Shown in pieces: positions 36,628-61,749 of a stretch of DNA of 64,000 nucleotides. The notes beneath the pieces were generated by a model that saw nothing but the letters and a program-made list of their open reading frames with translations, had not been told where the DNA came from and searched no databases. This DNA is from Kutzneria buriramensis (GTDB taxonomy: Bacteria > Actinomycetota > Actinomycetes > Mycobacteriales > Pseudonocardiaceae), in the NCBI RefSeq assembly GCF_003387475.1, contig NZ_QUNO01000001.1:186001-250000 (forward strand). Reading direction: 5' to 3'. Each line of letters opens with the position of its first letter. Position 1 is the stretch's first letter. A program made the translations under genes and the position numbers.

Positions 36628-36900
36628 TCAACCGGTGACCGTCGCGGCAGATCTGTCGGTGCCGCCGGTGCGCAGGTAGCTGTACACCGTCTCGCGGCTG
36701 ATGCCGAATTCCTTGGCCAGCAACGATTTCCGCTCTCCGGCGGCGGCGCGCTCCCGCAGCTGGTGGGCCTGCTCGTCGGTGAGCGCCGGCTTGCGGCCGG
36801 TGTAGGCACCGCGCTCAGATCAGGGCGCGCGCTCGTGCTCGGCGAACACGCCCATCGCGGACAGCAGTCGCGCGGCCACTGGCCCGCGCTGATCGTGTGT
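36628..36900 (-). pseudogene. Serine recombinase (resolvase/Hin) C-terminal fragment
   Basis: On the minus strand the end reads AYTGRKPALTDEQAHQLRER AAAGERKSLLAKEFGISRET and VYSYLRTGG, the DNA-binding helix-turn-helix of a resolvase-type recombinase. Upstream, LLSAMGVFAEHERA matches the end of the catalytic domain (family: VFAEFERxLIxER) but a stop and frame break separate the two. The catalytic N-terminus is gone, so it is inactive. Confidence 0.7.
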
Positions 36901-38384
36901 CAGGCGGGTGTGTTGGCGGGAGAGTCGGCCTTGGCGCCCGCGCGGCCGCCGGGCCGGATCTCGTAGAGGCCAGGTTCGATCAAGATGGAGTCGTGCCGGA
37001 TCCGGTCCTCCCAGCCCGGTGGCCAGCGCGTTGCGTGTGACCAGCGCACACCCTCCAGTGGGATCCTGCGAAGGTTCACCCTGGTTAGGTCGGCATCGGC
37101 CATGCTGGTGAGGGCCTCATCGAGGTGGTCGACGGCGTCGACCACCTCTCGGCCAAGCGAAGTGCGACTGATACTGGTGAGGACTCGGGCGAGGTCGCGG
37201 CCGAGGTCGCGGCCGGCGATGAGGGCGAGGATGCGGTCGCGGTCGCGGGTGTGGTCGACGGTGTGGTCGAGGACTCGGACGAGGTCGAGGACGCGGGCGC
37301 GGTCGAAGGCGAGGGCGAGGATGAGGCCGCGGTTGAGGTCGTAGTCGCAGTCGCAGTCGCGGGCGAGGTCGAGGGCGAGGCCGAGGTCGAGGGCGCGGGT
37401 GAGGGCGCGGGCGAGGTCGCGGGCGCGGACGAGGTTCACGTCCCGTGCGCGGGCGAGGTTGACGTCGACGGCGCGGTTGAAGTTGGAGGCGCGGTAGCGG
37501 GCGCGGTAGAGGCCGCGGTTGAAGACGCGGTCGTAGGTGAATTCGCGGGCGCGGGCACCGGCCAGATCGAGGGCGACGATTACAAGATGCGCTGAGGATC
37601 GGAGGACGTGCAATGCGGGGAGTTGGATCCAAGCGCGCGCGGCGAGCCGCTCGTGGGGTGGGCGCGCGGCGAAGTCGTTGGCGAAACCGCTGAGACCGCC
37701 GGCGGCTGCAGGATGGCCGGCGCGCGTGGCCGCAGGCGCGGGTGCGCCGATGATGTGACCGAGCCTGGCGTCCAGATCGACCACGTCGTCCAGCGCATGG
37801 ACAAGCTTGTCGCCCAGGCCGGGAAGCTGGGTCGAGGGCTGCACCGCTTCCATAACGTGCTCATGCCGTTGCTCCAGCGTCCTATCGGCCTGTTCAAGGC
37901 GCCGCCACAGCCGCGCGGAGTCCCGGCCGCCGGCCTCGAGGGAGGTCAGCTCGTCGCGGATCTCCTGCAGTCGCTCGTGGGCGGCGGCCCAGTCGGTGGA
38001 CTCGGTGGCCACCTTCTCCGCCTCGGCCACCAGGGACTTGCATCGGGCTGCCTGCCCGATCTGCGCGGCGCGAGCCAGGACGTCGGCGACTGCGGTCGGG
38101 CTGCTCTGTTCGCGCAGTGCCCGAGCCGCCGGCGTGCCCAACGAGCCCGTATTTATCTTCGCCATGATGGCCAGCACGTCCAGCTGCGCGGCGTCGAGGT
38201 TGTCCATGTCCAGCGGCACGCCCTGCACGAGATGGTCATGCAGCGGACGCAGCTGCCACAGCAATTCCTCGCGTTGCGGTGTCGGGTTCTGCGCCTGCAG
38301 CTGCTCGGTGACCGTGAAGAACCGCATGAACTGCGCCAACACGCCGGTGAAGGGCTCCAGCTCGGGCGGCTCGGAGTTAGTCAT
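36900..38384 (-). CDS. Module 1 partner: long Leu/Arg/Asp-repeat protein
   Basis: The 494-residue product begins MTNSEPPELEPFTGVLAQFM. Residues about 70-108 (KINTGSLGTPAARALREQSS) match the N-terminal domain of the module 2 partner at 52677 (QIDSTSLGTPAAKALRGRSN), so the two partners share a docking domain. Residues about 130-185 are a coiled coil. Residues about 270-415 are a degenerate repeat of Ala, Leu, Asp and Arg (DLARALTRALDLGLALDLAR), as seen in some actinobacterial NACHT-type proteins. The end, IPLEGVRWSHATRWPPGWED, matches a common actinobacterial pentapeptide-type tail. Its start overlaps the sigma-like gene by eight bases. The repeat may form a solenoid; no NTPase motif is seen. 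Confidence 0.7.
   Translation of the reverse strand: MTNSEPPELEPFTGVLAQFMRFFTVTEQLQAQNPTPQREELLWQLRPLHDHLVQGVPLDMDNLDAAQLDVLAIMAKINTGSLGTPAARALREQSSPTAVADVLARAAQIGQAARCKSLVAEAEKVATESTDWAAAHERLQEIRDELTSLEAGGRDSARLWRRLEQADRTLEQRHEHVMEAVQPSTQLPGLGDKLVHALDDVVDLDARLGHIIGAPAPAATRAGHPAAAGGLSGFANDFAARPPHERLAARAWIQLPALHVLRSSAHLVIVALDLAGARAREFTYDRVFNRGLYRARYRASNFNRAVDVNLARARDVNLVRARDLARALTRALDLGLALDLARDCDCDYDLNRGLILALAFDRARVLDLVRVLDHTVDHTRDRDRILALIAGRDLGRDLARVLTSISRTSLGREVVDAVDHLDEALTSMADADLTRVNLRRIPLEGVRWSHATRWPPGWEDRIRHDSILIEPGLYEIRPGGRAGAKADSPANTPA
37180..37560. repeat. Low-complexity purine-rich repeat tract inside the module 1 partner
   Basis: About 380 bases consist almost entirely of variations on GAGGTCGAGGGCG and GCGGGCGAGGTC on the plus strand. 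It encodes the Leu/Arg/Asp repeat on the other strand. The extreme regularity suggests growth by slippage or unequal crossover, and the tract is a likely site of length variation. Confidence 0.7.
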
Positions 38385-39228
38385 CTGCCCCGCCTTTCTG
38401 CTGCTTGCGCCAGCGGTAGACCTGTTGCTTGAGCGCGTCCTCAGTGGTGTTCCACCGCCGGGCGAGCTCGCTGTAGTCGACGTCGTGCAGGGCTTTGGCG
38501 GCCAGGACGTGCGCCAGCCGCTCGGAGTAGGTGGTGGCCGAGGCCAGCGCCTCCTGGAAGGTCTCGGTGAGGCACACCTGGATGGCGGGGTCGTTGTCCA
38601 GGCGCAGGTCGAGGTCGGTGTCCTCGGCGTGGACTAGGCCGGCGCCGCGGTCGTACTGCTTCACCCAGGAGCGGAATTCGTTGGGGAAGACCTGGATGCA
38701 GGCGCCAATGAAGAAGGTGGTCAGGCTGGCCCCGCCCTGCGGGGACCAGCCGCCCCGCACGAGGGCGAGGTCGCGGAAGTGGACCAGCGCGCGGGCCACG
38801 ACCATCGAGGCCAGCTCCTGGCGGTCGTCGAAGTCGCGGGACAGGCGCTCGCGCAGCTCGTCGGAGCACGTCACGGGCCGTCCCCGCTTGGCGGTGAGGC
38901 GGAAGATGTCGCGGCGGCGGATCCACGCCTGGATCACCGGCAGGCCGTAGTCGGCCAAGGTCTGGGTGAACACCGCGTACCCCCTGCTGTCGAACCCGTC
39001 CGCGCGCAGCTCCTCCACGAGGTCGTGATCGGCCTGCAGGCGGGCGATCCGGTCGGCGGCCCATTCGGCCTCGGCCCGTTCGATGGCGTCGAACCCGTTC
39101 GTGTGCAGGTCGGTCAGGGCAGCGTGGGCTGCATCGAGGGCCGGCGCCGTGATGGAGTCGTCCGGTTGTAGGTCCGTCGCGGCAGCCTCCAGCGGCGGCT
39201 GGCCACCGACCTGCTCGCCGCCGAACAT
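38377..39228 (-). CDS. Sigma-factor-like regulator, module 1
   Basis: From ATG 39228 (GGGAGG upstream) the product has 283 residues; the frame is open further upstream but homologues at 51832 and 59930 have similar starts relative to the promoter element. The core YAVFTQTLADYGLPVIQAWI, KRGRPVT, then GGASLTTFFIGACIQVFPNE is shared with both other copies and resembles sigma region 2. The C-terminus, YSELARRWNTTEDALKQQVY, is a region-4-like HTH. It diverges from a two-helix mini-protein and overlaps its partner gene by eight bases. I infer a diverged ECF-type sigma or anti-termination regulator; whether it binds RNA polymerase is not shown. Confidence 0.75.
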   Translation of the reverse strand: MFGGEQVGGQPPLEAAATDLQPDDSITAPALDAAHAALTDLHTNGFDAIERAEAEWAADRIARLQADHDLVEELRADGFDSRGYAVFTQTLADYGLPVIQAWIRRRDIFRLTAKRGRPVTCSDELRERLSRDFDDRQELASMVVARALVHFRDLALVRGGWSPQGGASLTTFFIGACIQVFPNEFRSWVKQYDRGAGLVHAEDTDLDLRLDNDPAIQVCLTETFQEALASATTYSERLAHVLAAKALHDVDYSELARRWNTTEDALKQQVYRWRKQQKGGADD

Positions 39229-39359
39229 GACCCCACCGCCTCCCGCCGACTCCGCCGCGCTGTAGGACTCCCCCAGGTTCCCAGGGCTCGCCTGTGCTTC
39301 CCGTCGGCCCGCGCTCCTTCGTCGCTTGCCGGCTCCGCCGTGAACCACACACGACCCCC

Positions 39360-39410
39360 TCGTATGTCGGCGCGGTTCGGGCGGGTAACGCGGATCTTCA
39401 AGATTTTTCC
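39360..39410 (-). promoter_or_regulatory. Bipartite element of module 1 (TCTTGA-31 bases-CATACGA)
   Basis: On the minus strand, GGAAAAATCTTGA (39410-39398) is followed by 31 bases and then CATACGA (39366-39360), with CGT at gap positions 8-10. The same arrangement occurs upstream of the two other sigma-like genes in this window with identical spacing. CATACGA lies about 130 bases before the start codon and may be the -10 element. Confidence 0.8.
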
Positions 39411-39516
39411 GAGAGGTTCGTCTCCTGCGTCTCGCGTCACCTGGCCTGGCCTTTTCGACATACAGCCACGGCGACTGCCGGGGCTGGCCCGGACCGAAGA
39501 CGATGGAGATCTGACC

Positions 39517-39711
39517 ATGGCCGCAAACCAGGACGACCGCAGCCCGCTGCTGCCGGTGCGCACCACGCTCGTGTTCCTGCTCAGTGTGCTGACCGGGATC
39601 GGCGCTGGGGTGCTGACCGTGTCCGCCGACGCGCCGGTCCCGTACGGCGTGCTCGTCGGGGCCGGCGCGCTGGCCGCGGCGGTGAGGTTTTTCGACTGGT
39701 TGGTCAACTGA
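39517..39711 (+). CDS. Two-helix membrane mini-protein, module 1
   Basis: The 64-residue product starts at ATG 39517 with GGAG upstream: MAANQDDRSPLLPVRTTLVF. A short polar N-terminus is followed by two hydrophobic helices (TLVFLLSVLTGIGAGVLTV and YGVLVGAGALAAAVRFF) and ends FFDWLVN. The same plan (polar tail, two helices, FFxWL end) occurs in the mini-proteins at 51387 and 59488, each divergent from a sigma-like gene. It may hold the sigma-like protein at the membrane as an anti-sigma, or form a pore; both are inference. Confidence 0.75.
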   Translation: MAANQDDRSPLLPVRTTLVFLLSVLTGIGAGVLTVSADAPVPYGVLVGAGALAAAVRFFDWLVN

Positions 39712-40970: not shown

Positions 40971-41229
40971 CGTTTCTCTCCCTGATGGCTCACTTATTCA
41001 ACACGGTTGGACTTCCATTTAATGCAAGACCGGCGGCGCCGCTCTTGGCTGTCTGGTGTTGCGGCGGCAACCGGGGCACTCGCTGTCCCGATTGCCGCCA
41101 CATCCGGTTTATCGTGAACTAGTTGTCCAATGTCGATGCGGCCTGCCGGACAATCAAACACGGACAACAGGGGTACCGCCGGCGACCATCATGGTCAAGG
41201 ATTGAGCCCGGGTGAAGGGAAGGGGCGCC

Positions 41230-44200
41230 ATGCCGAGGCCAGAACGTCCGTTGGATCCCGACCGTGATGTGGTGCAGTCGTTCGCCGCCCGCCTGCGGAA
41301 ACTGCGTGAGCAAGCCGGTAGTCCCGGATATCGGGAGTTAGCGCGTCGAGCCCACTACTCGGCTACGACGTTGTCGGATGCCGCCGGTGGACGGAAGCTG
41401 CCCAGCCTCGCCGTCACGCTTGCCTATGTGGCCGCGTGCGACGGGGATCGAGCAGAATGGGAAGCGTACTGGCGGGCTGCCGCCGCCGAACTGGCGCCCG
41501 CGGAGGTGACGGACATCAATGGGGAGGTTCGGGCGCCATACGTGGGACTAGCTAGTTTTCAACCTGAGGACGCGGACCGCTTTTTCGGCCGCGAGCACCT
41601 GGTCGGCCAGCTGACCGCCCGGTTGCGCCGTCAGCGGTTCATCGCCGTGTTCGGCCCCTCGGGCAGCGGGAAATCCTCGCTTCTACGCGCCGGACTCATC
41701 CCGGCGGTCACTGCGGGACACGGCGCCGATGGACACCCCTGCTCGACGGTGCTCTTCACCCCGGGAGAGCATCCGCTTCAGGAATGCGCCACCCAGTTCG
41801 CGGCACGGCTGCGGATTCCCGCCGGCACGGTGCTGGCCGACCTCGAAACGGACCCCACGCATCTTCACCTCGCCGTCAGGCAGGTGCTGGCCGACAAACC
41901 AGACCAGGCCGAGATGTTGCTGGTTGTGGACCAGTTCGAGGAGCTGTTCACTGTATGCCGCGACACCAGACAGCGGAGCCAGTTCATCGCGGCGCTGCTG
42001 GCCGCCGCCCAGGCGACCGCCAGTCGCGCTCGGGTGGTCCTCGGGATCAGAGCCGACTTCTATGCCCACTGTGCCCAGCACCCTGACCTCGTGGAAGCTC
42101 TCGAGGACGCACAGGTCCTGGTCGGCAGTATGCGGGCTGATGAACTCCGCGCGGCAATTACACGGCCGGCAGCGCAGGCAGGCCTCGTCGTGGAGGCGGC
42201 GCTGGTATCCACCATCGTCAGCGAGATGCTCGGCAACGCGGGTGCCCTACCACTGATGTCGCACGCCCTGGTCGAGACCTGGCGCCGCCGGCGCGGCACC
42301 ACGTTGTCCTTGACCGGTTACCAGGAGGCCGGGGGCGTGGCTGGCGCGCTCTCCCGGACTGCTGAACACACTTACCAGTCGTTGAGTCTGGCGCAGCAGC
42401 GGACAGCCCGCGCGGTGCTGCTGAGGCTGGTCTCACTGAACGAGGGCGCACAGGACACCCGCCGCCGGTGCCCCCGCGCCGAACTCGACCACCTCCTCTC
42501 CGAGGATCGCACCGCGGCTGCGGAGGCCGTGGACGAGACGGTGGCCGTGACCCTGGAGGCTCTTGCGCAGGCGCGGCTGCTCACCGTGGACGCTGACAGC
42601 GTCCAGATCGCCCACGAGGCGCTGATCCGGAGTTGGCCGCGCTTGCGGCAGTGGCTCGACGAGAACCGTGATGGCCTGCGAACCCATCGCCAGCTGACGG
42701 AAGCAGCCCAGTCCTGGGACGCCCTCGATCGTGATCCTGGGTCGCTCTACCGGGGTGCGCGCCTAGCCGCTGCCCAAGCCTGGGTCAGCGCGGCTGGACA
42801 TGCCGCTGGCCTCAACGCTGTCGAACGCGAATTCCTTGGCGCTAGCGACCGCGCCGCGCGACACGTCGTCCGCCGCCAGCGGAGGGTGATCACCGCATTG
42901 GTTACCGCATTGGTGGTCACTCTGGCCGCAGCAGGAGTGGCGATCTACCAACGTCAGAGCGCGGTGGACGAGAGCCGGACGGCCCTCGCCGGCAAGCTAG
43001 CCCTCCAGTCCACGGCGGCAGCCCCAGAGCGTCCCGATGAGGCGATGCTGCTGGCTGTGGGCGCCTACTATGAAGATCCCACCGCGCCGGAGGCGCGCGA
43101 CGCGCTGCTGAGCAGCCAAAGCCGTTACTTCATCGGTCGCCTCACCGGCCACACCAACGTCATCACAGGTCTGGCGTTCAGCCCGGACAACCGCGTCGTC
43201 GCCACCGCCAGCTTCGACAACACGGTTCGGCTGTGGGACCCGCACAGCCGAACCGTGATCGGCACTGTGCCGGGCAGATTCATGGCCTTGAGCCCGGACG
43301 GCCGTACGATCGCTACCGACAACCAGCACGCAACGGTCACGCTGTGGGACGTGGCTCATCAACGCGCGATGGCGACCTTCACGGGCGACACCGGCGGCAC
43401 CTTGGTCGACAGCCTCACCTTCAGCCCTGACGGCCAAACTCTGGCGACGACCAGCAATGACCGTGTCGTGCGGCTGTGGGACATGCGTAGCCGGTCGCTT
43501 GTCGGCACCCTGCAGAACGATAACCATTCTCTCTACGGGGTGGCGTTCAGCCCGGACGGGCACACCATCGCCACCACCACCGGCGATGGCTCGGTGCGGT
43601 TGTGGGACGTCGCCAGCCGCACGCAGGTTGCTGTCTTGACGGGTAATGCCGCCATAACGGCAGTGGCGTTCAGCCCGGACGGGCACACCATCGCCACCAC
43701 CACCGGCGATGGCTCGCTGCGGTTGTGGGACGTCGCCAGCGGGAAGCAGTTCGGTGTTTTGACTGGTACTGCCGGTCCAGCGTTGGACGTGGTGTTCAGT
43801 CCTGACGGTCGTACGGTCGCCGCCACCAGCGGTGCCGACCACACGGTGATGTTGTGGGCATTGCAGGGCCCGATTATCACTGCATCGCCGGCGGCGCCCG
43901 TCACGCAGGTGACGTTCAGCCGTGATGGCCGCTTCCTGGCGACCGCCCAACAGGATGGCGTCGTTCGCTTGTGGGATGCCCTCAGTCACGCGCCACAAGC
44001 GACTCTCGCCGGCACCACTGTCGCGTTCAGCCCTGGCGATCACCTCGTGGCCACTGGCGGCGACGATGGCATCGTGCGATTGTGGGATACCGCAACGCAT
44101 ACGCAAGTCGCCGAACTCATCGGCCACGTCGGCCCGATCAGGAGCGTGGCGTTCAGTCCGGACGGGCGCGTGCTGTCGTCTGCCGGCGATGACGCAACCG

Positions 44201-44838
44201 TGCGGCTGTGGGACGTCGCCGCCCATCGGCAGATCGTCGCGGCTGCCGAACACACCGGCCCAGTCACGAGCGTGGCGTTCAGTTCTAACGGCACAACTCT
44301 TGCTTCGGCTGGGGATGACGGCTTTGTGCGGTTGTGGGATGTGGTCAGCCACAAGCAAGTCGCCGCGTTGATCGGCCACTCCGGACACGTCCACGCGGTG
44401 GCGTTCAGTCCTGACGGCACAACTCTTGCTTCGGCTGGGGATGACGGCTTTGTGCGGTTGTGGGATGTGGTCAGCCACAAGCAAGTCGCCGCGTTGATCG
44501 GCCACTCCGGACACGTCCACGCGGTGGCGTTCAGTCCTGACGGCACAACTCTTGCTTCGGCTGGGGATGACGGCTTTGTGCGGTTGTGGGATGTGGTCAG
44601 CCACAAGCAAGTCACCGCCTTGACTGGCCACACCGGGCCAGCATCCAGCGTCGCTTTCAGTCCAGACGGGCACGCCCTTGTCTCCGGCGGAGAGGACACC
44701 ACCGCACGCCAGTGGGTCCTTGATCCGGTCCGGGTTGTTTCTGACGACTGCCGATTGCTCGGGGCCACTGCACGAACCCTGTGGGAACAGCTCCTTGCGG
44801 GACTCCCCTACCCGCCTCTGTGTCCCGGAAATCCGTGA
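41230..44838 (+). CDS. XRE-nSTAND NTPase with C-terminal WD40 propeller repeats
   Basis: The 1,202-residue product is taken from ATG 41230 after AAGGGG; GTG 41212 is possible. Residues about 10-85 form an HTH-like domain related to that of the kinase at 16821. The nSTAND module follows (YVGLASFQPEDADRFFGRE, Walker A GPSGSGKSSLLRAGLIPA, Walker B LLVVDQFEELF, and a winged-helix region to about 480). A membrane-like helix lies near 556-578. The last 600 residues are about 14 WD40 blades of the VAFSPDGxxLAxxxxDGxVRLWD type. Such proteins sense a ligand on the propeller and oligomerise for signalling or defence. No separate effector domain is obvious. Confidence 0.92.
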   Translation: MPRPERPLDPDRDVVQSFAARLRKLREQAGSPGYRELARRAHYSATTLSDAAGGRKLPSLAVTLAYVAACDGDRAEWEAYWRAAAAELAPAEVTDINGEVRAPYVGLASFQPEDADRFFGREHLVGQLTARLRRQRFIAVFGPSGSGKSSLLRAGLIPAVTAGHGADGHPCSTVLFTPGEHPLQECATQFAARLRIPAGTVLADLETDPTHLHLAVRQVLADKPDQAEMLLVVDQFEELFTVCRDTRQRSQFIAALLAAAQATASRARVVLGIRADFYAHCAQHPDLVEALEDAQVLVGSMRADELRAAITRPAAQAGLVVEAALVSTIVSEMLGNAGALPLMSHALVETWRRRRGTTLSLTGYQEAGGVAGALSRTAEHTYQSLSLAQQRTARAVLLRLVSLNEGAQDTRRRCPRAELDHLLSEDRTAAAEAVDETVAVTLEALAQARLLTVDADSVQIAHEALIRSWPRLRQWLDENRDGLRTHRQLTEAAQSWDALDRDPGSLYRGARLAAAQAWVSAAGHAAGLNAVEREFLGASDRAARHVVRRQRRVITALVTALVVTLAAAGVAIYQRQSAVDESRTALAGKLALQSTAAAPERPDEAMLLAVGAYYEDPTAPEARDALLSSQSRYFIGRLTGHTNVITGLAFSPDNRVVATASFDNTVRLWDPHSRTVIGTVPGRFMALSPDGRTIATDNQHATVTLWDVAHQRAMATFTGDTGGTLVDSLTFSPDGQTLATTSNDRVVRLWDMRSRSLVGTLQNDNHSLYGVAFSPDGHTIATTTGDGSVRLWDVASRTQVAVLTGNAAITAVAFSPDGHTIATTTGDGSLRLWDVASGKQFGVLTGTAGPALDVVFSPDGRTVAATSGADHTVMLWALQGPIITASPAAPVTQVTFSRDGRFLATAQQDGVVRLWDALSHAPQATLAGTTVAFSPGDHLVATGGDDGIVRLWDTATHTQVAELIGHVGPIRSVAFSPDGRVLSSAGDDATVRLWDVAAHRQIVAAAEHTGPVTSVAFSSNGTTLASAGDDGFVRLWDVVSHKQVAALIGHSGHVHAVAFSPDGTTLASAGDDGFVRLWDVVSHKQVAALIGHSGHVHAVAFSPDGTTLASAGDDGFVRLWDVVSHKQVTALTGHTGPASSVAFSPDGHALVSGGEDTTARQWVLDPVRVVSDDCRLLGATARTLWEQLLAGLPYPPLCPGNP
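44290..44613 (+). repeat. Identical 126-base WD40 repeats
   Basis: A 126-base unit starting GGCACAACTCTTGCTTCGGC occurs at 44290 and 44416 without a difference that I can see, and again at 44542 until it diverges near 44613. Each unit encodes one WD40 blade of 42 residues. DNA-level identity, including silent positions, indicates very recent tandem duplication or ongoing gene conversion. Confidence 0.9.
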
Positions 44839-51386: not shown

Positions 51387-51590
51387 TCATGCGATCAGCC
51401 AGTGGAAGAACCGGACGCTTGCCGCCAGAGTGGTCAACCCCGCCAACACGGCGATGGGCAACGGTTGGTGGGCCATGACGAGCAACGCCGTCGCCCCACC
51501 CCCGGCTAGCACGGCAAACAGCAAGACCACTGCTGCCCGCAGCCCGAGCAGTGCTCCGTCGTCCTTGCGTCTACGCGCCTTGTTCGTCAC
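51387..51590 (-). CDS. Two-helix membrane mini-protein, module 2
   Basis: The 67-residue product starts at GTG 51590 with GGAG seven bases upstream. A basic-polar N-terminus (TNKARRRKDDGALLGLRAAV) leads into two hydrophobic helices (VVLLFAVLAGGGATALLVM and LPIAVLAGLTTLAASVRFF) and the end FFHWLIA. It matches the mini-proteins of modules 1 and 3 in size, topology and FFxWL ending and diverges from the sigma-like gene at 51832. Confidence 0.75.
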   Translation of the reverse strand: MTNKARRRKDDGALLGLRAAVVLLFAVLAGGGATALLVMAHQPLPIAVLAGLTTLAASVRFFHWLIA

Positions 51591-51676
51591 CGTCGGCTCC
51601 TCGTCCAGGCCCCGGGCGTGGGGCGTTCGACCACCTACAGGCACCGGCGCGCGGTCCGCCCCACGAAAAAGATCGC

Positions 51677-51727
51677 GGAAAAATCTTGTAATTGGCCGTG
51701 GGGTAACTCTGGACGGCTCGCATACGA
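51677..51727 (+). promoter_or_regulatory. Bipartite element of module 2 (TCTTGT-31 bases-CATACGA)
   Basis: GGAAAAATCTTG at 51677-51688 and CATACGA at 51721-51727 are separated so that exactly 31 bases lie between TCTTGT and CATACGA, with CGT at gap positions 8-10. The layout is the same as upstream of the sigma-like genes of modules 1 and 3. The element lies about 100 bases before the start codon. Confidence 0.8.
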
Positions 51728-51831
51728 AGACAGCGCGGGCGACCGTCCGGCATGGGCGGGGGCTGCCGACGAATACAACCGGCGGACAGCCCACACCGGC
51801 ACTATGCGGCGACGGACGGCGGGCGGCAGGG

Positions 51832-52680
51832 ATGGGCGAGGGCGACTCCGGTGAGACACCGAACGCGCTCGCCTGCGACGACGCCGACGGCACGCCTGAT
51901 CCCGACCTGGCCGGCATCCAAGCCCTGCTCGGCGACGCCGACGCGACACCGAGTGACGAACTGGCCGAGGCTGCGGACCGACGTGCGCGGCGGGAGGAGG
52001 ATCGGCGGCTCTACGAACTGCTAGCGGGCGACCAGTTCCAAGGTCCTCGCTACGACATCTTCATCGCGGAACTGGCCGCCTACGGGATCGGGGTCATCAA
52101 CTCGTGGCTGTACAAACGTGTGATTTTCCAGTACTGCGCCAACCGCGGGCGTCCTCTACCGGGAGCCGCCAGGCACAAGGACCTTGCCAGCGCTGACGCC
52201 GACGAGCGGGACGAGTTGGCGATCGAGGCGGTCGCCGAAGGCCTGCAGTTCTTCCGGGCCCACACCCTGCTGCAAGGCCGCTGGGATCCCGACGGTCGCG
52301 CCAGCCTGAAGACGTTCTTCATCGGTGCCTGCATGCTGCGATTCCCGACCGTGTGGCGTCGGTGGCTGGCCGGCACTGCCGACGGCGGCCGCTCCAACAG
52401 CCCGCAGATCGTCTCCGTCCCCGATACAGGTGATCTTCTGGGACATCCGGCGTCACGCGACCAACCGGAAACAGTGCTCCTGGCAAATGAACGAATCGAA
52501 CAGGAGCTGAGTGCGATGCCCGCCGACCTCCGAGACGTCGCCTGGCGAATCGCGCATGACGACGCCACGGTCGTGGAGATCGCCGACGCCCTTGGCGTGA
52601 GTGCTCGAAGTCTCGAAGGCAAGTTCTACCGGCACCGCAAACGTGTCGCCCAGCGCGCAACATCACGGAGGACGAGATGA
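51832..52680 (+). CDS. Sigma-factor-like regulator, module 2
   Basis: From ATG 51832 (GGCAGGG upstream) the product has 282 residues. It shares with modules 1 and 3 the core YDIFIAELAAYGIGVINSWL, NRGRPLPG, then GRASLKTFFIGACMLRFPTV WRRW, and a region-4-like HTH at the end, VVEIADALGVSARSLEGKFY. The acidic N-terminal 75 residues are not conserved. Its stop overlaps the ATG of the partner by four bases, after a GGAGG site. Sequence identity with the other copies looks only moderate, so the three modules are old relatives rather than recent duplicates. Confidence 0.75.
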   Translation: MGEGDSGETPNALACDDADGTPDPDLAGIQALLGDADATPSDELAEAADRRARREEDRRLYELLAGDQFQGPRYDIFIAELAAYGIGVINSWLYKRVIFQYCANRGRPLPGAARHKDLASADADERDELAIEAVAEGLQFFRAHTLLQGRWDPDGRASLKTFFIGACMLRFPTVWRRWLAGTADGGRSNSPQIVSVPDTGDLLGHPASRDQPETVLLANERIEQELSAMPADLRDVAWRIAHDDATVVEIADALGVSARSLEGKFYRHRKRVAQRATSRRTR

Positions 52681-53966
52681 CTGATCCCGTCTCGATCACC
52701 GACAGCCAGCTGACCCGGCTGATCACCGTCCTCACCCAGCGGCAGGTCACCGACCCGAACCCGGACCGCAGCGCAGTCCTCAACGCGTTGCACGAGCTGA
52801 CAGCGATGCGATCCGCATCCGCCAAGCCCGCAGCTTCCGCCCGGATGAGTGACCTCACCACCCAGGTGCTGGCCTACCTCACGCAGATCGACTCCACCTC
52901 GCTCGGCACTCCAGCCGCCAAGGCACTGAGAGGACGCAGCAACACCGCGCATGTGGCCGCCGCTATCGCGCGAGCAACTGATCGTGACGAACTCGCCGGA
53001 CTCGACCCGGAGCTGCGTCAACACCTTCCGACCACCACGGTCATCGCGTTCGCTGAAGGAAGTCTCCACGGTGCGGAGAGCGTGGTGGCTACGGTGCACC
53101 TGAGGCACTGCTCGTTGTGCTGGGCGGAGCTGCAGATCCAGCGCGAGTCGAGACTCGTCGTCGTCAACGCGCTCCGACAGGACTCGCCGGCCTCGGTGCG
53201 CGACCTCGATGACCAGAACCTACTAGGCGGATTCGGTGCTCGTCTTGTGGAGGATGTCGAGCAGCGCAGCGACGTCGAAGTTCAAGCTGAAGCCTCAGAA
53301 GCCGGAGCACTGGCAGTTCTGGTGCGTGAGAATGACGTGGCACAGGTGCTACCTGTGAGGACCGACGACGGGCCGGCGCCAAAGCCAGTGGCCGCGTACG
53401 GTCCGCAGGACGAGCAGTTCCGCCTGCTCGTCGATGCCGCAATCGACCGCGATCCGGTTGCCACGCAGCGGGTGGTGGAGTCGATCAGGCCGATCGTGCT
53501 GCGGTACTGCCGGGCCCGAATCGGCCGGCTGGACCGCTCGTTCGCAGTGGCCGACGACGTGGTGCTGGAGGTCTGTCTGTCGGTGATCTCGGCGTTGCCG
53601 TCCTATCGCGACCAGGAGCAGTCGTTCCTGGCCTTCGTGTACGGCATTGCGCGGCACAAGGTCGCCGAGGCGCACCGGGCGGCGGCCCACAACCGGTCGC
53701 TGCTGGTGCCCGAGGTGCCGGACCCGCCGGAGACGGTCGCCGGCCCCGAGCAGCGGGTGCTGCAAGACGAGTTGAAGGGGTCGATGGACCGGCTGCTCGC
53801 GGTCCTGTCCGACAAGCAGCGCGAGATCGTGGTGCTGCGGGTGGTCGTCGGGCTGTCGCCTCAGGAGACCGCCGATCTGGTGGGTTCTACCCCGGGAGCG
53901 GTCCGGCTGACAGAGCATCGGGCGCTACGCAGGCTGCGCAAGCTGGTCAGTATCAAGGAGTTCTGA
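52677..53966 (+). CDS. Module 2 partner: zinc-anti-sigma-like domain joined to an ECF sigma factor
   Basis: The 429-residue product begins MTDPVSITDSQLTRLITVLT. Residues about 60-100 (STSLGTPAAKALRGRS) match the module 1 partner. Residues about 120-155 contain HLRHCSLCWAEL, the H-x3-C-x2-C signature of zinc anti-sigma domains. After a linker of about 90 residues, residues about 245-425 are a complete ECF sigma of ShbA/SigD type: DEQFRLLVDAAIDRDPVATQ, SFLAFVYGIARHKVAEAHRA and LSPQETADLVGSTPGAVRLT. Anti-sigma and sigma in one chain is unusual. The linker could mark an accidental fusion of two genes, but the frame is continuous. Confidence 0.75.
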   Translation: MTDPVSITDSQLTRLITVLTQRQVTDPNPDRSAVLNALHELTAMRSASAKPAASARMSDLTTQVLAYLTQIDSTSLGTPAAKALRGRSNTAHVAAAIARATDRDELAGLDPELRQHLPTTTVIAFAEGSLHGAESVVATVHLRHCSLCWAELQIQRESRLVVVNALRQDSPASVRDLDDQNLLGGFGARLVEDVEQRSDVEVQAEASEAGALAVLVRENDVAQVLPVRTDDGPAPKPVAAYGPQDEQFRLLVDAAIDRDPVATQRVVESIRPIVLRYCRARIGRLDRSFAVADDVVLEVCLSVISALPSYRDQEQSFLAFVYGIARHKVAEAHRAAAHNRSLLVPEVPDPPETVAGPEQRVLQDELKGSMDRLLAVLSDKQREIVVLRVVVGLSPQETADLVGSTPGAVRLTEHRALRRLRKLVSIKEF

Positions 53967-56133: not shown

Positions 56134-56780
56134 GCCGGACTCTTCTCGCTCAGGATGTGCTGGACGCGGGACACGATTGTGGCGGCGATCGTCTCGGGCG
56201 CGTCGGTGGTGGTGTCCAGCGGGACGACCGGCCAGCCCCGGTGGCGCAGATCGGTGATGGCGCGGGCATACAGGCCGGTCTCCTGCTCGCTGTTGTCCTC
56301 GGCGCGTTCGAAGCGGCTGTGGCCGCCACGGGCCCGCAGGCGGCCGTCGATGACCTGGGGGTCACCGGTGAGGATGATCGACAGATCGGGTCGGTAGACG
56401 CCGTGGTTGAGCTGCCACACCACCTCGGCGGGCACCCCGTCCAGGCCCTGCAGCACCAGGGAGGAGGCGACGTAGCGGTCGCACAGAACGATCCGGCCCT
56501 CGCGCAGCGCGGGCAGGATCTCGGTGTCAAGTTGGTGGTGCCGGTCGGCCGCGCAGAGGCAGGCCAGGGCCATGCCCCGGTAGGTGTCGGTGCCGTGCCG
56601 GGCCAGTTCGCCCAGCGTCGCACGGGACGGTTGGCTCGTGGCGTGCACCGACGCGCCGGCCGATTCCAGCGTCTGGGCGATCAGGCGTGCGGCGGTGGAC
56701 TTGCCCACGCCGCCGGGGCCGTCCAGGGTGATCAGCACGCCCGGCAGGCGCTGCGGCCCGTCGACCGGGATGCCGATCAC
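56124..56780 (-). CDS. Thymidylate-kinase-like nucleotide kinase
   Basis: The 218-residue product starts at GTG 56780, overlapping the radical SAM stop by four bases. It shows the dTMP kinase series: P-loop ITLDGPGGVGKSTAARLIAQ, the DRY-type motif IVLCDRYVASSLVLQG, and SIILTGDPQVIDGRLRARGG before the LID-like segment with FERAEDNSE. The sequence diverges from housekeeping Tmk and there is no other nucleotide biosynthesis gene nearby, so it probably phosphorylates a special nucleotide made in this operon. Which nucleotide is not shown. Confidence 0.85.
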   Translation of the reverse strand: MIGIPVDGPQRLPGVLITLDGPGGVGKSTAARLIAQTLESAGASVHATSQPSRATLGELARHGTDTYRGMALACLCAADRHHQLDTEILPALREGRIVLCDRYVASSLVLQGLDGVPAEVVWQLNHGVYRPDLSIILTGDPQVIDGRLRARGGHSRFERAEDNSEQETGLYARAITDLRHRGWPVVPLDTTTDAPETIAATIVSRVQHILSEKSPACL

Positions 56781-57895
56781 GCGGGCATCAGCGGCAGCAG
56801 CCGGCGCCCTGCGGTGTGTGCGTCGGTGGTGACCGGGCACTGCTCGGTGTCGACGTCGCCGATGCGGCCGCCGGCGGCGACCACTGCGGCCGGGCAGCCC
56901 TTGCCGCAGCCGGTGTTCATCGAGCACGCCCCACACGTGCGGTTGTCGCCGACCCGATAGCGGTCGTGGAAGCGGTAGTCGTCCAGGCGCTGCGCGATGT
57001 CCGGGTCGGTGAAGATGTTGCCGACGATGAACTCGGTGTCGGCGTGCCGCGATTGTGGGGTGCGGGCGGCGAACACCAGATAGGGACACACCGTCACCTC
57101 GCCGGGTGTGAACACGTAGATGATCGTCCCGGCCTCGCACCCAGCCAGCGGCCGGCCGGCGGTGTTGGGGAACCGGATGTGCGCGATGTCCAACTCTGGG
57201 CCGTCGAATGGCGCGGTCAGCTCGAAGATCTCCTGCATGTGCAGGGTCGTCTTCGCCAGCTTGGACCGCGACTTCACGCCGCGGCCCATGCTGCCCAGCG
57301 GGTTGAGCAGCACGTAGCGCGCGCCGTTGGCGCGGGCGAACGCGCACAGCCGTGCGTACTCCTCGTTCTGCGCCAGCGTGTTCGGCGTGCACAACAACCC
57401 CTGCAAAATTCCGGCTGCGCCCAGCTTCTCCACGGTAGCCGTGGTGACGGTGAAACTGGCGCGGTCACCACGGAACTTGCCGTGGGAGTCGGCCGCGAAC
57501 CCGTCCAGGGACACGTTGCAGTGCACGCCCAACGCCGCCAGCGCACGGATCACGGTGTCGTCGAGGGTGGTGGCGTTGGTGCAGATCCCGACATCCATCC
57601 CGACCGCCCGGAACTCCCGCACGATGGCCAGGAAGTCCGGGTGGATCGACGGTTCCCCGCCGGTGAGGGTGACTCGGCTGACCCGGGCCTCGGCCAGGCG
57701 CGGGATCACCTTCTCCACCACCGCGGTCACGGGCATCTGCCTGCCAACCTTCGTGGCAGACACGAAGCAGTGGGCGCAGCGCAGGTTGCAGTCCTCGTTG
57801 ATCTGGACCAGTGCCTTGCGGAATGGCTGCTCGACCGTGGTGCGGAAGTAGCAGGACGGGGCCACCTCATCGGTGGCGATGCTGCGAGCGGTCAC
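56777..57895 (-). CDS. Radical SAM enzyme with SPASM-like C-terminal Cys cluster
   Basis: The 372-residue product is taken from GTG 57895 after GGAGG; the frame extends upstream but across the operators. The radical SAM cluster motif is CNLRCAHC near residue 41, followed by LTGGEPSIHPDF. The C-terminus has CGACSMNTGCGKGCPA and QCPVT, a SPASM-like auxiliary cluster region. It resembles MoaA/PqqE-type enzymes. Association with a nucleotide kinase recalls prokaryotic viperin loci, though viperins lack SPASM. It leads the operon kinase-EEP-NUDIX. The substrate could be a nucleotide or a peptide. Confidence 0.88.
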   Translation of the reverse strand: MTARSIATDEVAPSCYFRTTVEQPFRKALVQINEDCNLRCAHCFVSATKVGRQMPVTAVVEKVIPRLAEARVSRVTLTGGEPSIHPDFLAIVREFRAVGMDVGICTNATTLDDTVIRALAALGVHCNVSLDGFAADSHGKFRGDRASFTVTTATVEKLGAAGILQGLLCTPNTLAQNEEYARLCAFARANGARYVLLNPLGSMGRGVKSRSKLAKTTLHMQEIFELTAPFDGPELDIAHIRFPNTAGRPLAGCEAGTIIYVFTPGEVTVCPYLVFAARTPQSRHADTEFIVGNIFTDPDIAQRLDDYRFHDRYRVGDNRTCGACSMNTGCGKGCPAAVVAAGGRIGDVDTEQCPVTTDAHTAGRRLLPLMPA

Positions 57896-57970
57896 CGCGA
57901 AACCTCCGCTTCCCCAGGCGTCCCGCCTCGGACGCTCTGCTGGGCGGCCGGCTGACGCACCCACTCGAAA

Positions 57971-58072
57971 TGTTCGACCGGACATTATAAATAGTAAAGA
58001 TGTTCGGTCGGACATTTTTGGACATCTCCATGGGACCTGCGTTCAATGACATTCCAACTGTCCGAGCGGACA
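57971..58072. promoter_or_regulatory. Three operator copies TGTYCG-N2-CGGACA between rSAM operon and regulator
   Basis: Copies lie at 57971-57984 (TGTTCGACCGGACA), 58001-58014 (TGTTCGGTCGGACA) and 58059-58072 (TGTCCGAGCGGACA, a perfect palindrome). Copies 1 and 2 are 30 bases apart, copies 2 and 3 are 58 apart. A TATAAT on the minus strand (57984-57989) is a very good -10 for the radical SAM operon and is bracketed by copies 1 and 2. The sites are probably bound by the LysR-like protein encoded to the right. Confidence 0.8.
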
Positions 58073-59182: not shown

Positions 59183-59487
59183 CGGCCGCTTTCCCTCCCA
59201 GTCGTCCGGTCTTCGCCGCCTAGCAAGCAGCGCTCGGTCCATGCTGCGGCTGGGTGGATGGCCGGGGCAAGCCGTCGGTAGCCCCGGCCACACAACGAAC
59301 TCACCGCACCCGGCGTCTGTCGTTCAGCCAGGCCGCACACGTGGTGGGTGATCCCTCCGGCCTGGCCTGCGGCAGGGAGCATCATGGCGCCGGCGTCGAA
59401 CGGCCCTTCGGCGCCGGCTCGTATCCGTCTACAGGGCTTGCGTCGGGGAGCGGTACCGTCAGGGCACCTGCACCCCGGCGCTGTTCA
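59183..59487. other. Spacer between the LysR-like gene and module 3
   Basis: About 300 bases with no supportable gene; it joins two convergent units, so it should carry their terminators, though I see no strong hairpin. Confidence 0.45.
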
Positions 59488-59703
59488 TCATCGCGGCCCG
59501 ATGAGCCAGTTGAAGAAGGCCGCCGCTCCGGCGGCCGCTCCCAGCCCGAGCAGCAGGGCTTCGGCGATGTGCCGCCCGGCCCACAGACCAAGCGCTCCGG
59601 CGCCGAGGCCAGCGAGGACCGCGAGCAGAAGAATGAGCGCGGTGCGCTGGGTAAGCAGTGGCTGCGAGGAGTGGTCGTCGGGTCCGCTGGTTGTGCGCGA
59701 CAT
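59488..59703 (-). CDS. Two-helix membrane mini-protein, module 3
   Basis: The 71-residue product from ATG 59703 has a polar N-terminus (SRTTSGPDDHSSQPLLTQRT), two hydrophobic helices (ALILLLAVLAGLGAGALGLW and ALLLGLGAAAGAAAFF) and the end FFNWLIGPR. It follows the same plan as the mini-proteins of modules 1 and 2 and is divergent from the sigma-like gene at 59930. In a CBASS-like reading, a two-helix membrane protein could be the effector of the nucleotidyltransferase encoded in this module. Confidence 0.75.
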   Translation of the reverse strand: MSRTTSGPDDHSSQPLLTQRTALILLLAVLAGLGAGALGLWAGRHIAEALLLGLGAAAGAAAFFNWLIGPR

Positions 59704-59800
59704 CGGTCTTGCCCCTAGTCGTGATCGTGACCGGGACCGTCCCGGCCATGCCGGGTCTGTAGGTCCAAAGCCACAGCTCACCCTACGTTCTCCTTCGCCG

Positions 59801-59850
59801 AAAAGATCTTGAAAGAAACCGTAGGGTCCCCGGCTCGAGGCGACATACGA
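59801..59850 (+). promoter_or_regulatory. Bipartite element of module 3 (TCTTGA-31 bases-CATACGA)
   Basis: AAAAGATCTTGA at 59801-59812 is followed by 31 bases and CATACGA at 59844-59850, with CGT at gap positions 8-10 and GGGT three bases later as in module 2. The element lies about 80 bases before the sigma-like start codon. Confidence 0.8.
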
Positions 59851-59929
59851 GGGTTCGTGTCGTTGTGCAGTTTCGGCGGCGCGGGCCATCGATACTGGCG
59901 GCGCGCAGAAGAACCGGGAGTGGGAGCGC

Positions 59930-60856
59930 ATGGGTTTGCAGCCAGGTGGAGCGCGCTTCGCGCTTCAGGCTGCCGTCAGCGCGAACCTACAACCGGAAGT
60001 AGATGGGCAGTTCGGTGGCGACGCCGTCGACCTCTGCGCCCTGTTCATGTCGCCGACCATGTTGGACCGGGGCGCGCTGGTCGGACTCGCGCACGATCTG
60101 ACCATGGTCGGTCACGGTCCCGAGGCCGAGAAGATCCGCAAAGCTGCGGATAACCTCGCCCAGCGTGAGGCGGACGCCACCTTCTACAACCGGATTGTCG
60201 CCGCCGAGTTCGCCGGTGCCGATTACCAGATGCTGATCGCGGACCTGATCTCGTACGCGTTCCCCACGTTGTTGTCGTGGCTGCGCAGGGGAACGGTCTT
60301 CGGACAGAGCAAGCAGCGGGGTCGCCCCGTTTTCTATGACGAACGAGACCTGGACGAGCTGCGCCGCGACAAGGAGCTCCGCGAGGAGCTGGCCTACGAG
60401 ATCATCGCGGAGGCGATCAAACTGTTCCGCACGAAGGGCCTGGACGGCACGGGCTGGAGTATCGAGGGCGGTGCGGCGCTGACGACCTACTTTGTCGGTT
60501 CGTGCCTAGCGGTATTCCCAGGTGTGTGGCGACGCTGGCGGCGTGAACAGCAGCGGGAACGCGTTTACGATCACACCGAGCACGTGCTCGACTTCGACAC
60601 CGCCGCCAGGAAGGTTCTCGACCCGCGGATCTGCGCCGACCCGGCCGACGTAGCGGCTGCCCGCGACCTCGTGCGCACGGAATTGGCCGCGATGAAGGGC
60701 CCGCTCCGTGACGTCGCGGAGCTCATCGTGCTGCACGGTTGCACGCTGGTCGAGGCCGCCAGCCAGCTGGGCACTACACCGGGCGCAGTTGAGCAGCGGC
60801 TACGCCGCTATCGCAACGAGATCACCCGGCGCCGCAAGGAAAGAGTGGGCACATGA
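59930..60856 (+). CDS. Sigma-factor-like regulator, module 3
   Basis: From ATG 59930 (GGGAG upstream) the product has 308 residues. It shares the module core, YQMLIADLISYAFPTLLSWL, QRGRPVFYDE, GGAALTTYFVGSCLAVFPGV WRRW, and a region-4-like HTH, LVEAASQLGTTPGAVEQRLR. The last helix-turn-helix looks most like a genuine sigma-70 region 4 of the three copies. The stop overlaps the ATG of the nucleotidyltransferase by four bases. Regions 1.1 and 3 of standard sigma factors are not seen. Confidence 0.75.
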   Translation: MGLQPGGARFALQAAVSANLQPEVDGQFGGDAVDLCALFMSPTMLDRGALVGLAHDLTMVGHGPEAEKIRKAADNLAQREADATFYNRIVAAEFAGADYQMLIADLISYAFPTLLSWLRRGTVFGQSKQRGRPVFYDERDLDELRRDKELREELAYEIIAEAIKLFRTKGLDGTGWSIEGGAALTTYFVGSCLAVFPGVWRRWRREQQRERVYDHTEHVLDFDTAARKVLDPRICADPADVAAARDLVRTELAAMKGPLRDVAELIVLHGCTLVEAASQLGTTPGAVEQRLRRYRNEITRRRKERVGT

Positions 60857-61749
60857 GCGAGCGTGACACCACGGCGGACGAGCGGCTGAGTGAGCACGCG
60901 CGGTACCTCGCGACGGTGCTCGCCGAACGCGTCGTCGATAGGGACGCCGATCCCACGTCGACGGACTTGGAAACGGCAGCCCACCTTTGGTTGATGGGCT
61001 CCTACCGGCAAAGCACGAAGCTGCGCCCGATGGAAGACGTCGACTTTCTCGTCAGCCTCGACGAGGACGGCGACGAGCACACCGGCGAGATTCTTCGGCG
61101 GGTTCGGAACCTCTATGTGCACGAGGACCTGGTCGACAACGCGCCACGAGCCAGCGTTCGTATCCAGTTCCACGACAATCAGGTCGACGTCATGCCCGTC
61201 TTCCACGATGACGAGCAGGCCGACGTCATGCCCGTCGACCGGTGTTCGCACGCAACGACCGTCGGGGGACCGCACCGTGATCGGTTCCGCCAGCTGGTGC
61301 GGCTTGCCAAGTACCTCCTTGCAAGCGGTACGCCCGCTACCAGCTGCCCGGCGGAGCACGACGAGCAGAGTGACCGGCGTCCACGACAAGTCGTGATCGA
61401 GCTCTGGCTACTACTGCTCGCCGCTGAAGCCCCGGAAGGCGAGATTCTCGACAGAGAATGCTCACATAGCGCGTGGCGGGTCGTCGATCCGCATGTCAGG
61501 TGCACGGCCCAATCGGACGCCGTTGTGCTTCACGTCCCGCAGCTAACCGATGAGGAGCTCGCCCGCGCGTGGCGTGTGGCTCGCGAGCGATACCAGCAGA
61601 CCCTCGACAAGGTGCGGTTGCTGGAGCGTTCGTCACTGGGCGCGGCTCGGTCGCGGTCGGCGCGTCAACGCACGTCGCCGCGAGCCGTGCAGGAAGTATT
61701 CAAGCGGGTGAGTGGCGGCGGCACCGAAAGCAGAGCGCCTGCGGGATAG
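60853..61749 (+). CDS. Module 3 partner: CD-NTase-like nucleotidyltransferase
   Basis: The 298-residue product from ATG 60853 shows a pol-beta-type nucleotidyltransferase core: LWLMGSYRQSTKLRPMEDVD FLVSLDED, with GSY and the first two catalytic acids in DVD(F), then VRIQFHDNQVDVMPVF with the third acid in VDVMP. This GS...DxD...VDVxP order is that of SMODS/CD-NTases, which make cyclic oligonucleotide signals in CBASS. A C-terminal helical part follows. No typical CBASS accessory (Cap2, Cap3 or HORMA) is next to it. The product nucleotide cannot be predicted. Confidence 0.75.
   Translation: MSERDTTADERLSEHARYLATVLAERVVDRDADPTSTDLETAAHLWLMGSYRQSTKLRPMEDVDFLVSLDEDGDEHTGEILRRVRNLYVHEDLVDNAPRASVRIQFHDNQVDVMPVFHDDEQADVMPVDRCSHATTVGGPHRDRFRQLVRLAKYLLASGTPATSCPAEHDEQSDRRPRQVVIELWLLLLAAEAPEGEILDRECSHSAWRVVDPHVRCTAQSDAVVLHVPQLTDEELARAWRVARERYQQTLDKVRLLERSSLGAARSRSARQRTSPRAVQEVFKRVSGGGTESRAPAG

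Follow-up and report, generated by a model that had tools for sequence, protein, structure and literature searches.

Extracytoplasmic function (ECF) sigma factors with co-encoded anti-sigma factors have been sorted into 157 ECF groups (PMC8103513). A sigma-centred cassette of comparable layout occurs three times in a stretch of 64,000 nt from Kutzneria buriramensis (assembly GCF_003387475.1, contig NZ_QUNO01000001.1, positions 186,001-250,000, forward strand). This whole stretch is called the window, and coordinates are window positions, position 1 being its first letter. Each cassette, or module, joins a sigma-like gene to a partner gene carrying a tag of about 35 residues, termed SSLG, and to a divergent mini-protein gene. 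The likeness to the ECF systems lies in a protein with sigma2 and sigma4 only, a regulator encoded directly downstream and likely autoregulation. The differences are that none of the three sigma-like proteins scored above a curated Pfam or NCBIfam cut-off (the best ECF-model score was 24 bits against 42.9, the 157 ECF group models lying outside the comparison), that the tag alone matches no listed Pfam family, that the other domain of the regulator is swapped among many unrelated classes, and that the cassette has a mirror-image promoter-like pair and a divergent mini-protein.

In Streptomyces, ShbA drives hrdB, the principal sigma gene, and its in vitro regulon is very narrow and includes its own gene (PMC9205884). 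The module 2 partner is of the ShbA type, and similar sigma partners occur elsewhere, but here the protein is the tagged partner of another sigma factor and has an added N-terminal SSLG part. Effector-associated-domain (EAD) conflict systems fuse a small constant domain to exchangeable effectors (Kaur et al. 2020, PMC7159879; Kaur et al. 2021, PMC8195603), and EACC2-caspase neighbourhoods with an ECF sigma gene are described among them (Kaur et al. 2021, PMC8195603). The cassettes likewise combine a small constant domain with exchangeable putative effectors, but their constant centre is a sigma factor. No MoxR, vWA, STAND, GTPase or TRADD-N core scored above cut-off in scans of single partners, in which no EAD models were compared. 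The text of PMC8195603 does not mention SsgA or SMODS, and that of PMC7159879 does not mention SsgA.

The likeness to the cyclic-oligonucleotide-based antiphage signalling system (CBASS) is confined to module 3, which has a CD-NTase-like enzyme and a nearby protein with two transmembrane segments. In contrast to CBASS, the mini-protein accompanies many kinds of partner and is therefore probably not a CD-NTase-specific effector. The CBASS models of PADLOC matched neither the four open reading frames (ORFs) neighbouring module 3 nor its mini-protein. An initial annotation of the window, made from the sequence alone, knew of no described system with these parts, and no description of the cassette design was found in the open-access literature (subscription papers were outside this coverage).

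The sigma-like protein and its tagged partner

The modules lie at 36900-39711 (module 1, sigma-like gene on the minus strand), 51387-53966 (module 2) and 59488-61749 (module 3), with the four-part layout that the initial annotation had given them: a bipartite element rich in A and T separates a divergent mini-protein gene (64-71 residues) from a sigma-like gene (282-308 residues), which is followed by a partner gene. As it had also claimed, the partner begins before the sigma-like gene has ended; the two share 8 bases in module 1 and ATGA (4 bases) in modules 2 and 3. The likely starts, as judged from the sequence, are 39517, 51590 and 59703 for the mini-proteins and 39228 (minus), 51832 and 59930 for the sigma-like proteins. 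No further strong copy of the sigma family was found in the organism's own 12-Mb genome, where a fourth match reached just E 6e-4. The sigma-like genes, partners and tags are listed below with their basis, which for the tags is a hidden Markov model (HMM) built outside the window and, for partner 1, an AlphaFold2 (AF2) model.

38377..39228, minus strand: module 1 sigma-like gene, 283 aa (protein alignment, genome search)
36900..38384, minus strand: module 1 partner, 494 aa, C-terminal half LRD-rich (Pfam scan; 8-base overlap with sigma stop)
38040..38183, minus strand: SSLG motif of partner 1, INTGSLGTPAARALREQSSPTAVADVLARA (non-window HMM, E 1e-9; three-helix AF2 model)
51832..52680, plus strand: module 2 sigma-like gene, 282 aa (protein alignment, genome search)
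52677..53966, plus strand: module 2 partner, 429 aa, with C-terminal ShbA-type ECF sigma, residues 244-425 (NF007230; Sigma70_r2, r4)
52860..53003, plus strand: SSLG motif of partner 2, IDSTSLGTPAAKALRGRSNTAHVAAAIARA (non-window HMM, rank 3 in window, E 1.2e-3)
59930..60856, plus strand: module 3 sigma-like gene, 308 aa (AF2 model, sigma2 and sigma4 folds)
60853..61749, plus strand: module 3 partner, 298 aa, CD-NTase-like, with C-terminal SSLG (PADLOC oligonucleotide cyclase, 3.2e-12)
61594..61746, plus strand: SSLG motif of partner 3, LLERSSLGAARSRSARQRTSPRAVQEVFKRVSGG (non-window HMM, E 5.4e-8)

By its predicted fold, the sigma-like protein is a sigma2-sigma4 factor, and its family is unmatched to a described one. 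The window proteins are 33% identical to the first of them. The AF2 model of the module 3 protein (274 residues from 60032 on) had a predicted local distance difference test score (pLDDT) of 85, and the best 50 of its 258 matches in a PDB comparison were, by title, sigma factors or sigma-containing complexes. The sigma2 part superposed on SigK at 2.6 Å over 85 residues and the sigma4 part on SigD at 2.5 Å over 62 residues, in the order sigma2 then sigma4, with modest scores, among the matches listed. The TIGR02937 model gave E 2.4e-5 for the module 3 protein and 0.003-0.004 for the other two.

The initial annotation had described the three partners as different, but they are not unrelated, as one SSLG motif is common to all of them. 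Partners 1 and 2 align around the stretch SLGTPAA-ALR, which is also present in the partners of relatives, and in partner 3 the tag is C-terminal, behind the CD-NTase-like part. With the HMM, which was built from non-window loci only, the window partners ranked 1-3 among 915 six-frame window frames, the next frame scoring 0.066. The tag model used 32 of 53 segments. AF2 models of the module 1 tag segment, on 32 sequences, showed three short helices, the first turn of which holds SLG; the best of the five had a pLDDT of 86 and the other four 74-83. A tag search of 60 genomes gave 8 matches at E<=3e-10, all adjoining sigma-like genes and all rows of the query itself; the next match had E 1e-3, and one at 2e-3 also adjoins a sigma-like gene. 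No strong tag was found away from a sigma-like gene in these genomes, in each of which up to 125 candidates were scored. Partners consisting of the tag alone exist (52-86 aa).

The labels given earlier to the rest of the partners (LRD-rich, C-terminal ECF sigma and CD-NTase-like) all hold. For the supposed anti-sigma half of partner 2, Pfam gave nothing at E<=1, though the protein shows an H-x3-C-x2-C motif. Its C-terminal part scored 228 bits against NF007230 (ShbA type), for which the cut-off is 209. No known anti-sigma domain was found in the three window partners (Pfam, E<=1) or among the 25 of 31 Pfam families listed for 76 partners of the family, and the tag alone had no match among these listed families. 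Partner 3 matched the oligonucleotide cyclase of PADLOC, but its scores with CBASS_cyclase_b of NCBIfam (40.5 bits, cut-off 200) and Pfam SMODS (23.7, cut-off 26.5) were below the cut-offs, and there was no PDB sequence match at E<=0.01. A GS-x-DVD pattern is visible in it, which we take to be the CD-NTase-type motif.

Distribution of the family and exchange of partners

When 84,980 species genomes were scanned with a sigma alignment, without regard to the tag, 66 pattern matches led to 57 confirmed loci; the scan requires a GGAS-like pattern and misses sigma relatives that do not have it. Streptomyces accounts for 29 of the loci, and the others belong to other Actinomycetota (among them Kitasatospora, Amycolatopsis, Rhodococcus, Corynebacterium, Micromonospora, Nonomuraea, Arthrobacter and Acidimicrobiales). 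A tag-bearing partner adjoins the sigma-like gene in 51 of the 57 (HMM, E<=1e-3, candidate ORFs), the loci missed by the HMM being L208, L215, L219, L232 (tag visible by eye), L234 and L235. The partner start overlaps the sigma stop in 47 of 52 counted loci (L232 among the 52, by eye), by four bases in 29, when the in-frame start nearest to a four-base overlap is taken. The profile search and neighbour tabulation proposed in the initial annotation thus found that homologues elsewhere mostly keep the overlapping partner.

At E<=1e-12, with six candidates scored per genome, a search of 397 genomes from the order found 31 carriers of the family and one of 396 from the phylum found 4, the own genome included. 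The family was present in 13 of 72,556 plasmid records, one of them a plasmid of Nocardia sp. NBC_01503 (L077). The tag was visible by eye in 11 of the 13 plasmid neighbourhoods, L074 and L076 having a small hydrophobic protein instead, and in 29 of 36 further genome loci, five of these in a degenerate SSV form. The locus sets overlap (L077 with L097, L088 with L207 and L091 with L198). A tblastn search of 50,697 phage records with the sigma-like protein of module 3 found no relative, and none of four viral-contig stretches that fit the pattern encodes one; a viral origin was rejected. A linear plasmid of 174,582 bases (G243:C2) has five sigma-like places; four of these form two mirrored pairs of equal score, a pattern that terminal repeats would give.

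Behind the tag stand SsgA, sigma factors, Crp, LuxR, XRE, GGDEF-EAL, caspase, YceG or CD-NTase parts, or nothing. Pfam and PADLOC covered 76 of 96 tagged partners, the other 20 being near-copies, tag-only partners or L204 (masked stretch). Among the 76, Pfam found SsgA in 17, sigma region 4 in 17, region 2 in 10, HTH_17 in 8, LuxR in 5, HTH_31 and DUF5753 in 4 each, EAL, GGDEF and cNMP-binding domains in 2 each, and YceG, caspase, PP-binding carrier, cold-shock, TPR and SMODS in one each; these are 25 of 31 families, and the counts are not independent because near-copies are included. PADLOC matches among the same partners were mad1 (7), PycTIR (2), CARF (2) and several single ones, and clear defence-like partners were few (one CD-NTase-like, one caspase).

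The exchange was examined in one well-supported sigma clade of Streptomycetaceae (100/99; nine representatives, 36 pairs). Within it the sigma-like proteins are 51-72% identical, the mini-proteins 53-75% (28 pairs, one locus being without a mini-protein) and the tag parts 41-79%. Of the three same-class pairs, the HTH_17 pair (E 7e-24) and the XRE pair (6e-38) were similar in the remaining part of the partner and the pair of sigma-like ones was not; between classes this part gave E>=0.008. The sigma model was built from 39 rows (36 of 39 non-redundant loci and the three of the window). On the sigma tree of 98 rows, from which L071, L097, L099, L105-L108 and L112 were excluded, as were the short domains L228, L229, L232, L235, the first match of L203 and one L233 fragment, the partner type needed 23 changes (84 rows typed, partly by eye). 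A TIR domain guessed by eye in L186 was dropped after Pfam found none, and the 23 changes still count its label as a separate state.

The constant core with an exchangeable partner, as proposed in the initial annotation, was thus borne out, as sigma, mini-protein and tag are conserved in one clade while the other part of the partner changes. Its reading of the modules as conflict systems was not supported as stated, since many partners are transcriptional or developmental regulators, few are defence-like, and no relatives were found in the phage records and viral contigs searched.

Some loci have further genes of note. In L080-L084 the tag is continued in frame by repeats like HRSAITGRYVxxAAAARHPxTTVTE, and in L078 and L079 such repeats form a separate small ORF after it. 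The downstream ORF of L099 matches an ADP-ribosyltransferase-like family and has no tag. In L085-L087, L113, L095 and L111 the sigma-like gene stands directly before a ShbA-type sigma gene, a pair that may bear on the control of ShbA.

Mirrored promoter-like pairs and the mini-protein

The bipartite element between the sigma-like and mini-protein genes is, on the sequence evidence, a putative pair of mirror-image promoters, one facing each gene, with a short central element between the two -35 sequences. The element claimed in the initial annotation is real, as no gap separates its two halves when the three modules are aligned and A(3-5)[AG]ATCTTG occurs in the 64-kb window at the three modules only, on the sigma strand between the two -35s. 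The approximate form of the pair is CGTGGGGT-N14-CACCTAGAAGG. In the list, scores and ranks refer to a position weight matrix (PWM) derived from non-window regions.

39435..39467, plus strand: module 1 mini-side pair, CGTCACCT-N14-GACATACAGCC (one of two 0-mismatch genome sites for its own pattern)
39399..39408, minus strand: module 1 central AAAAATCTTG element (sequence reading)
39358..39390, minus strand: module 1 sigma-side pair, CGTTACCC-N14-GACATACGAGG (-35 half diverged; outside top 25 PWM matches)
51633..51665, minus strand: module 2 mini-side pair, CGTGGGGC-N14-TGCCTGTAGGT, weak -10 (score 5.6)
51679..51688, plus strand: module 2 central AAAAATCTTG element (sequence reading)
51697..51729, plus strand: module 2 sigma-side pair, CGTGGGGT-N14-CGCATACGAAG (top window match of non-window PWM)
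59755..59787, minus strand: module 3 mini-side pair, CGTAGGGT-N14-GACCTACAGAC (rank 7 of window PWM matches)
59801..59811, plus strand: module 3 central AAAAGATCTTG element (sequence reading)
59820..59852, plus strand: module 3 sigma-side pair, CGTAGGGT-N14-GACATACGAGG (second window PWM match)

Fitting a two-block motif to 70 non-redundant regions from outside the window gave CGTGGGGT, a gap and cACcTAgAAGG (small letters, under half). The matrix was shaped by the 63 sites scoring above 9, in which the gap was 14 in 40 and 13 in 20; the seed was picked after viewing sequences that included those of the window, which was excluded from the fit only. Scores above 16 were reached in 45 of the 70 regions, in 0-1 in five dinucleotide shuffles and in 1 of the reversed regions, and when the full motif was refitted on shuffled sequence, 5 regions exceeded 16 and 65 of 70 exceeded 9. 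Applied to the 64 kb, the non-window PWM scored highest at the sigma side of module 2 (22.9), followed by that of module 3 (20.6) and a site at 26647 (16.7). The module 3 mini side ranked seventh, and neither side of module 1 nor the module 2 mini side was in the top 25. The strict A(3-5)[AG]ATCTTG form was found in 10 of the 70 other regions and in 0 on the opposite strand, with 0.15 expected.

The -35 sequences are alike inside each module and different among the three (sigma/mini side, by eye, gap 14: CGTTACCC/CGTCACCT, CGTGGGGT/CGTGGGGC and CGTAGGGT/CGTAGGGT in modules 1, 2 and 3). Over 36 loci, modules 2 and 3 among them, with identical sets removed and relatedness uncorrected, the mean distance between the -35 halves of a locus was 1.39 of 8 compared with 2.18 when permuted, and 0 of 20,000 permutations were as low. 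The genome was also scanned with two patterns drawn from the modules themselves. The pattern of modules 2 and 3 gave 10 sites compared with 10 for the reversed control, and nothing in the genome stood out besides three module promoters (0, 1 and 2 mismatches); a 2-mismatch site at 44834, fourth in the PWM scan, was taken as chance. The module 1 pattern gave 22 sites compared with 9, of which the two with 0 mismatches are the module's own, none has 1 and 20 have 2.

A GTGA-N6-TCAC palindrome, which resembles Crp-family sites, lies upstream of the sigma gene in 10 of the 70 intergenic regions (0.4 expected), nine of them (L065, L067, L069, L200, L201, L203, L204, L209 and L213) in the SsgA-type clade and L226 elsewhere. 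Rfam at gathering scores found one tRNA in the window and nothing else; an RNA-family identity of the bipartite element was therefore rejected and the element read as DNA.

The mini-proteins encoded on the other side of the element are as follows.

39517..39711, plus strand: module 1 mini-protein, 64 aa, two hydrophobic helices (alignment; HMM E 8e-27, own sequence in HMM)
51387..51590, minus strand: module 2 mini-protein, 67 aa, GTG start (alignment; HMM, own sequence in HMM)
59488..59703, minus strand: module 3 mini-protein, 71 aa (alignment; HMM, own sequence in HMM)

They are 47% identical, each with two hydrophobic stretches. The FFxWL end reported for them is present in all three, and the aligned relatives end otherwise. 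The question whether a divergent mini-protein is always present, also raised in the initial annotation, was answered in part: it is common but not universal, and a profile detected it upstream in 28 of the 57 named loci (L222 weakly, E 0.02), four of the 29 others (L204, L205, L217 and L233) being cut short upstream. Its presence is clustered on the tree (10 changes, 32.5 when shuffled). The 22 loci with a tag-only or tag-and-repeat partner yielded no mini-protein, compared with 44 of 72 others that have one (Fisher, p 6e-8), a test that is not independent because the tag-only type needs only 2 changes on the tree. The 22 include five same-genus loci, L080-L084, in which the tag runs into the repeat part (144-146 aa), and both groups hold near-copies (L088/L207 and L228/L229 in the 22, L070/L071 and L091/L198 in the 72). 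Among loci with a ShbA-type partner, no mini-protein was found in L085-L087, L095, L111 and L113, and one is present in the ShbA-like module 2 of the window and L194.

Holin identity was not supported, since 0 of 14 mini-proteins matched a holin family in Pfam and one had a weak phrog lipoprotein match. SLATT identity was not supported either (0 of 14 at E<=0.01; the module 2 protein had just SLATT_fungal, E 0.016, 15.7 bits, cut-off 26.5). Relatives of the mini-protein also stand, without a sigma-like gene, beside XRE-type helix-turn-helix genes (by eye) at four places in three genomes (L174-L177; G026, G026, G027 and G000:C38), and the protein of L175 seems to have a GIY-YIG-like end. A fifth and weaker place, L178, has no such gene.

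Three neighbouring regions of the window were also noted. Between modules 1 and 2, tyrosine-recombinase-like ORFs lie in a row at 47081-50793 on the minus strand (Phage_integrase, 1e-10 and 2e-10; Phage_int_SAM_1, 2e-6), a possible mobile element. At 41212-44838 on the plus strand there is an nSTAND1 NTPase (4e-136) with WD40 repeats, several units being near-identical by eye. Near module 3, at 56777-58015 on the minus strand, a radical-SAM protein matches prokaryotic viperin models (PADLOC, 1e-18) over residues 71-180 only, which may be no more than the shared radical-SAM core.

Proposed mechanism and alternatives

We propose, with a rough probability of 0.58, that the module is a mobile, self-driving sigma switch to which the partner docks by SSLG, as anti-sigma factor or co-regulator. 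The sigma-like protein would drive the two back-to-back mirror-image promoters, and so its own operon and the divergent mini-protein gene. This use of the promoters is suggested by the conserved -35/-10-like pair with its 13-14-base gap and by the likeness of the -35s within a locus. The partner, probably made from the same message, would bind the sigma-like protein through the three-helix tag and hold or redirect it, as gene order, the tag-only partners and the constant adjacency of the two families suggest. The rest of the partner would be an exchangeable input or output unit. On a signal, released sigma would amplify its own cassette, yielding partner and mini-protein, and the latter would act at the membrane. 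Anti-sigma genes usually lie directly beside their sigma gene, where the partner sits here; this position, with a smallest partner that is the tag alone, favours the anti-sigma or co-regulator role. As the genome searches saw no further close site, a circuit that mainly feeds itself is favoured, although a laxer regulon may exist. For the same reason, and because their -35 sequences differ, the three modules probably act as separate, insulated circuits.

Two alternatives keep the sigma-like protein at the centre, and each is unlikely, to about the same degree. SSLG could be a recruiting tag by which sigma carries the tagged partner to promoters, the two forming a two-part transcription factor. 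A two-subunit sigma factor exists in Bacillus subtilis, and many of the 76 partners have a sigma or helix-turn-helix domain (17 sigma region 4, 8 HTH_17, 5 LuxR, 4 XRE-type with DUF5753 and 2 Crp), but no DNA-binding domain was found in scans of the SsgA, YceG, carrier-protein, caspase and CD-NTase-like partners, and partners of 52-86 aa are the tag alone. The modules could equally be housekeeping systems of plasmids or development, sigma/anti-sigma pairs that time sporulation, cell division or plasmid functions. The SsgA partners (17 of 76), the ShbA-type partners, of which those of L095 and L111 lie on contigs as large as chromosomes (9.4 and 11.8 Mb), and the GTGA-N6-TCAC palindromes in 10 of 70 intergenic regions would fit this, whereas the exchange of partners and the patchy distribution in the order (31/397) and phylum (4/396) argue against it.

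Somewhat less probable still are dedicated anti-phage or suicide systems, in which sigma would fire on infection, the partner would signal or cut, and the mini-protein would break the membrane. The CD-NTase-like and caspase partners, the PADLOC matches among the 76, the plasmid location, the radical-SAM gene with a partial viperin-like match near module 3 and an exchange of effectors typical of conflict systems point that way, but many partners are regulators and the mini-proteins match no holin family. It is very unlikely that the mirrored motif is a palindromic operator or RNA hairpin instead of a promoter pair. The two -35-like halves do form an inverted repeat, with 11-12 exact bases in some loci, but a TA-containing block follows 13-14 bases on at the sigma side (60 of 63 kept sites), a matching mini-side block is often present (24 of 36 above score 9, which shuffled refits also often pass), and outward transcription from these blocks would exclude the arms from both messages.

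Beyond the self-driving switch with a docked partner, a wider reading is possible, at a little short of even odds. The family would then be a plug-in signalling platform of actinobacterial mobile DNA, in which the sigma family recognises a universal tag of about 35 residues, any tagged protein can join or control a private self-amplifying circuit, circuits are kept apart by a -35 that changes with its sigma, and the mirrored promoters tie the mini-protein to the same trigger. Candidate tagged proteins include a second-messenger enzyme, a caspase, a cell-division regulator, a transglycosylase, a carrier protein and other sigma factors. If this is true, the cassette would be a natural portable sigma switch, seen with more than 10 unrelated partner domains, whose docking tag is short and universal and whose private promoter is readable, and CD-NTase-like, caspase and GGDEF-EAL proteins could be wired to a sigma factor. 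New partners could be sought with a simple motif, the co-evolution of transcription specificity and docking could be tested directly, and the cassette would give a common explanation for the approximately 100 loci seen here, which are mostly annotated as hypothetical or unannotated.

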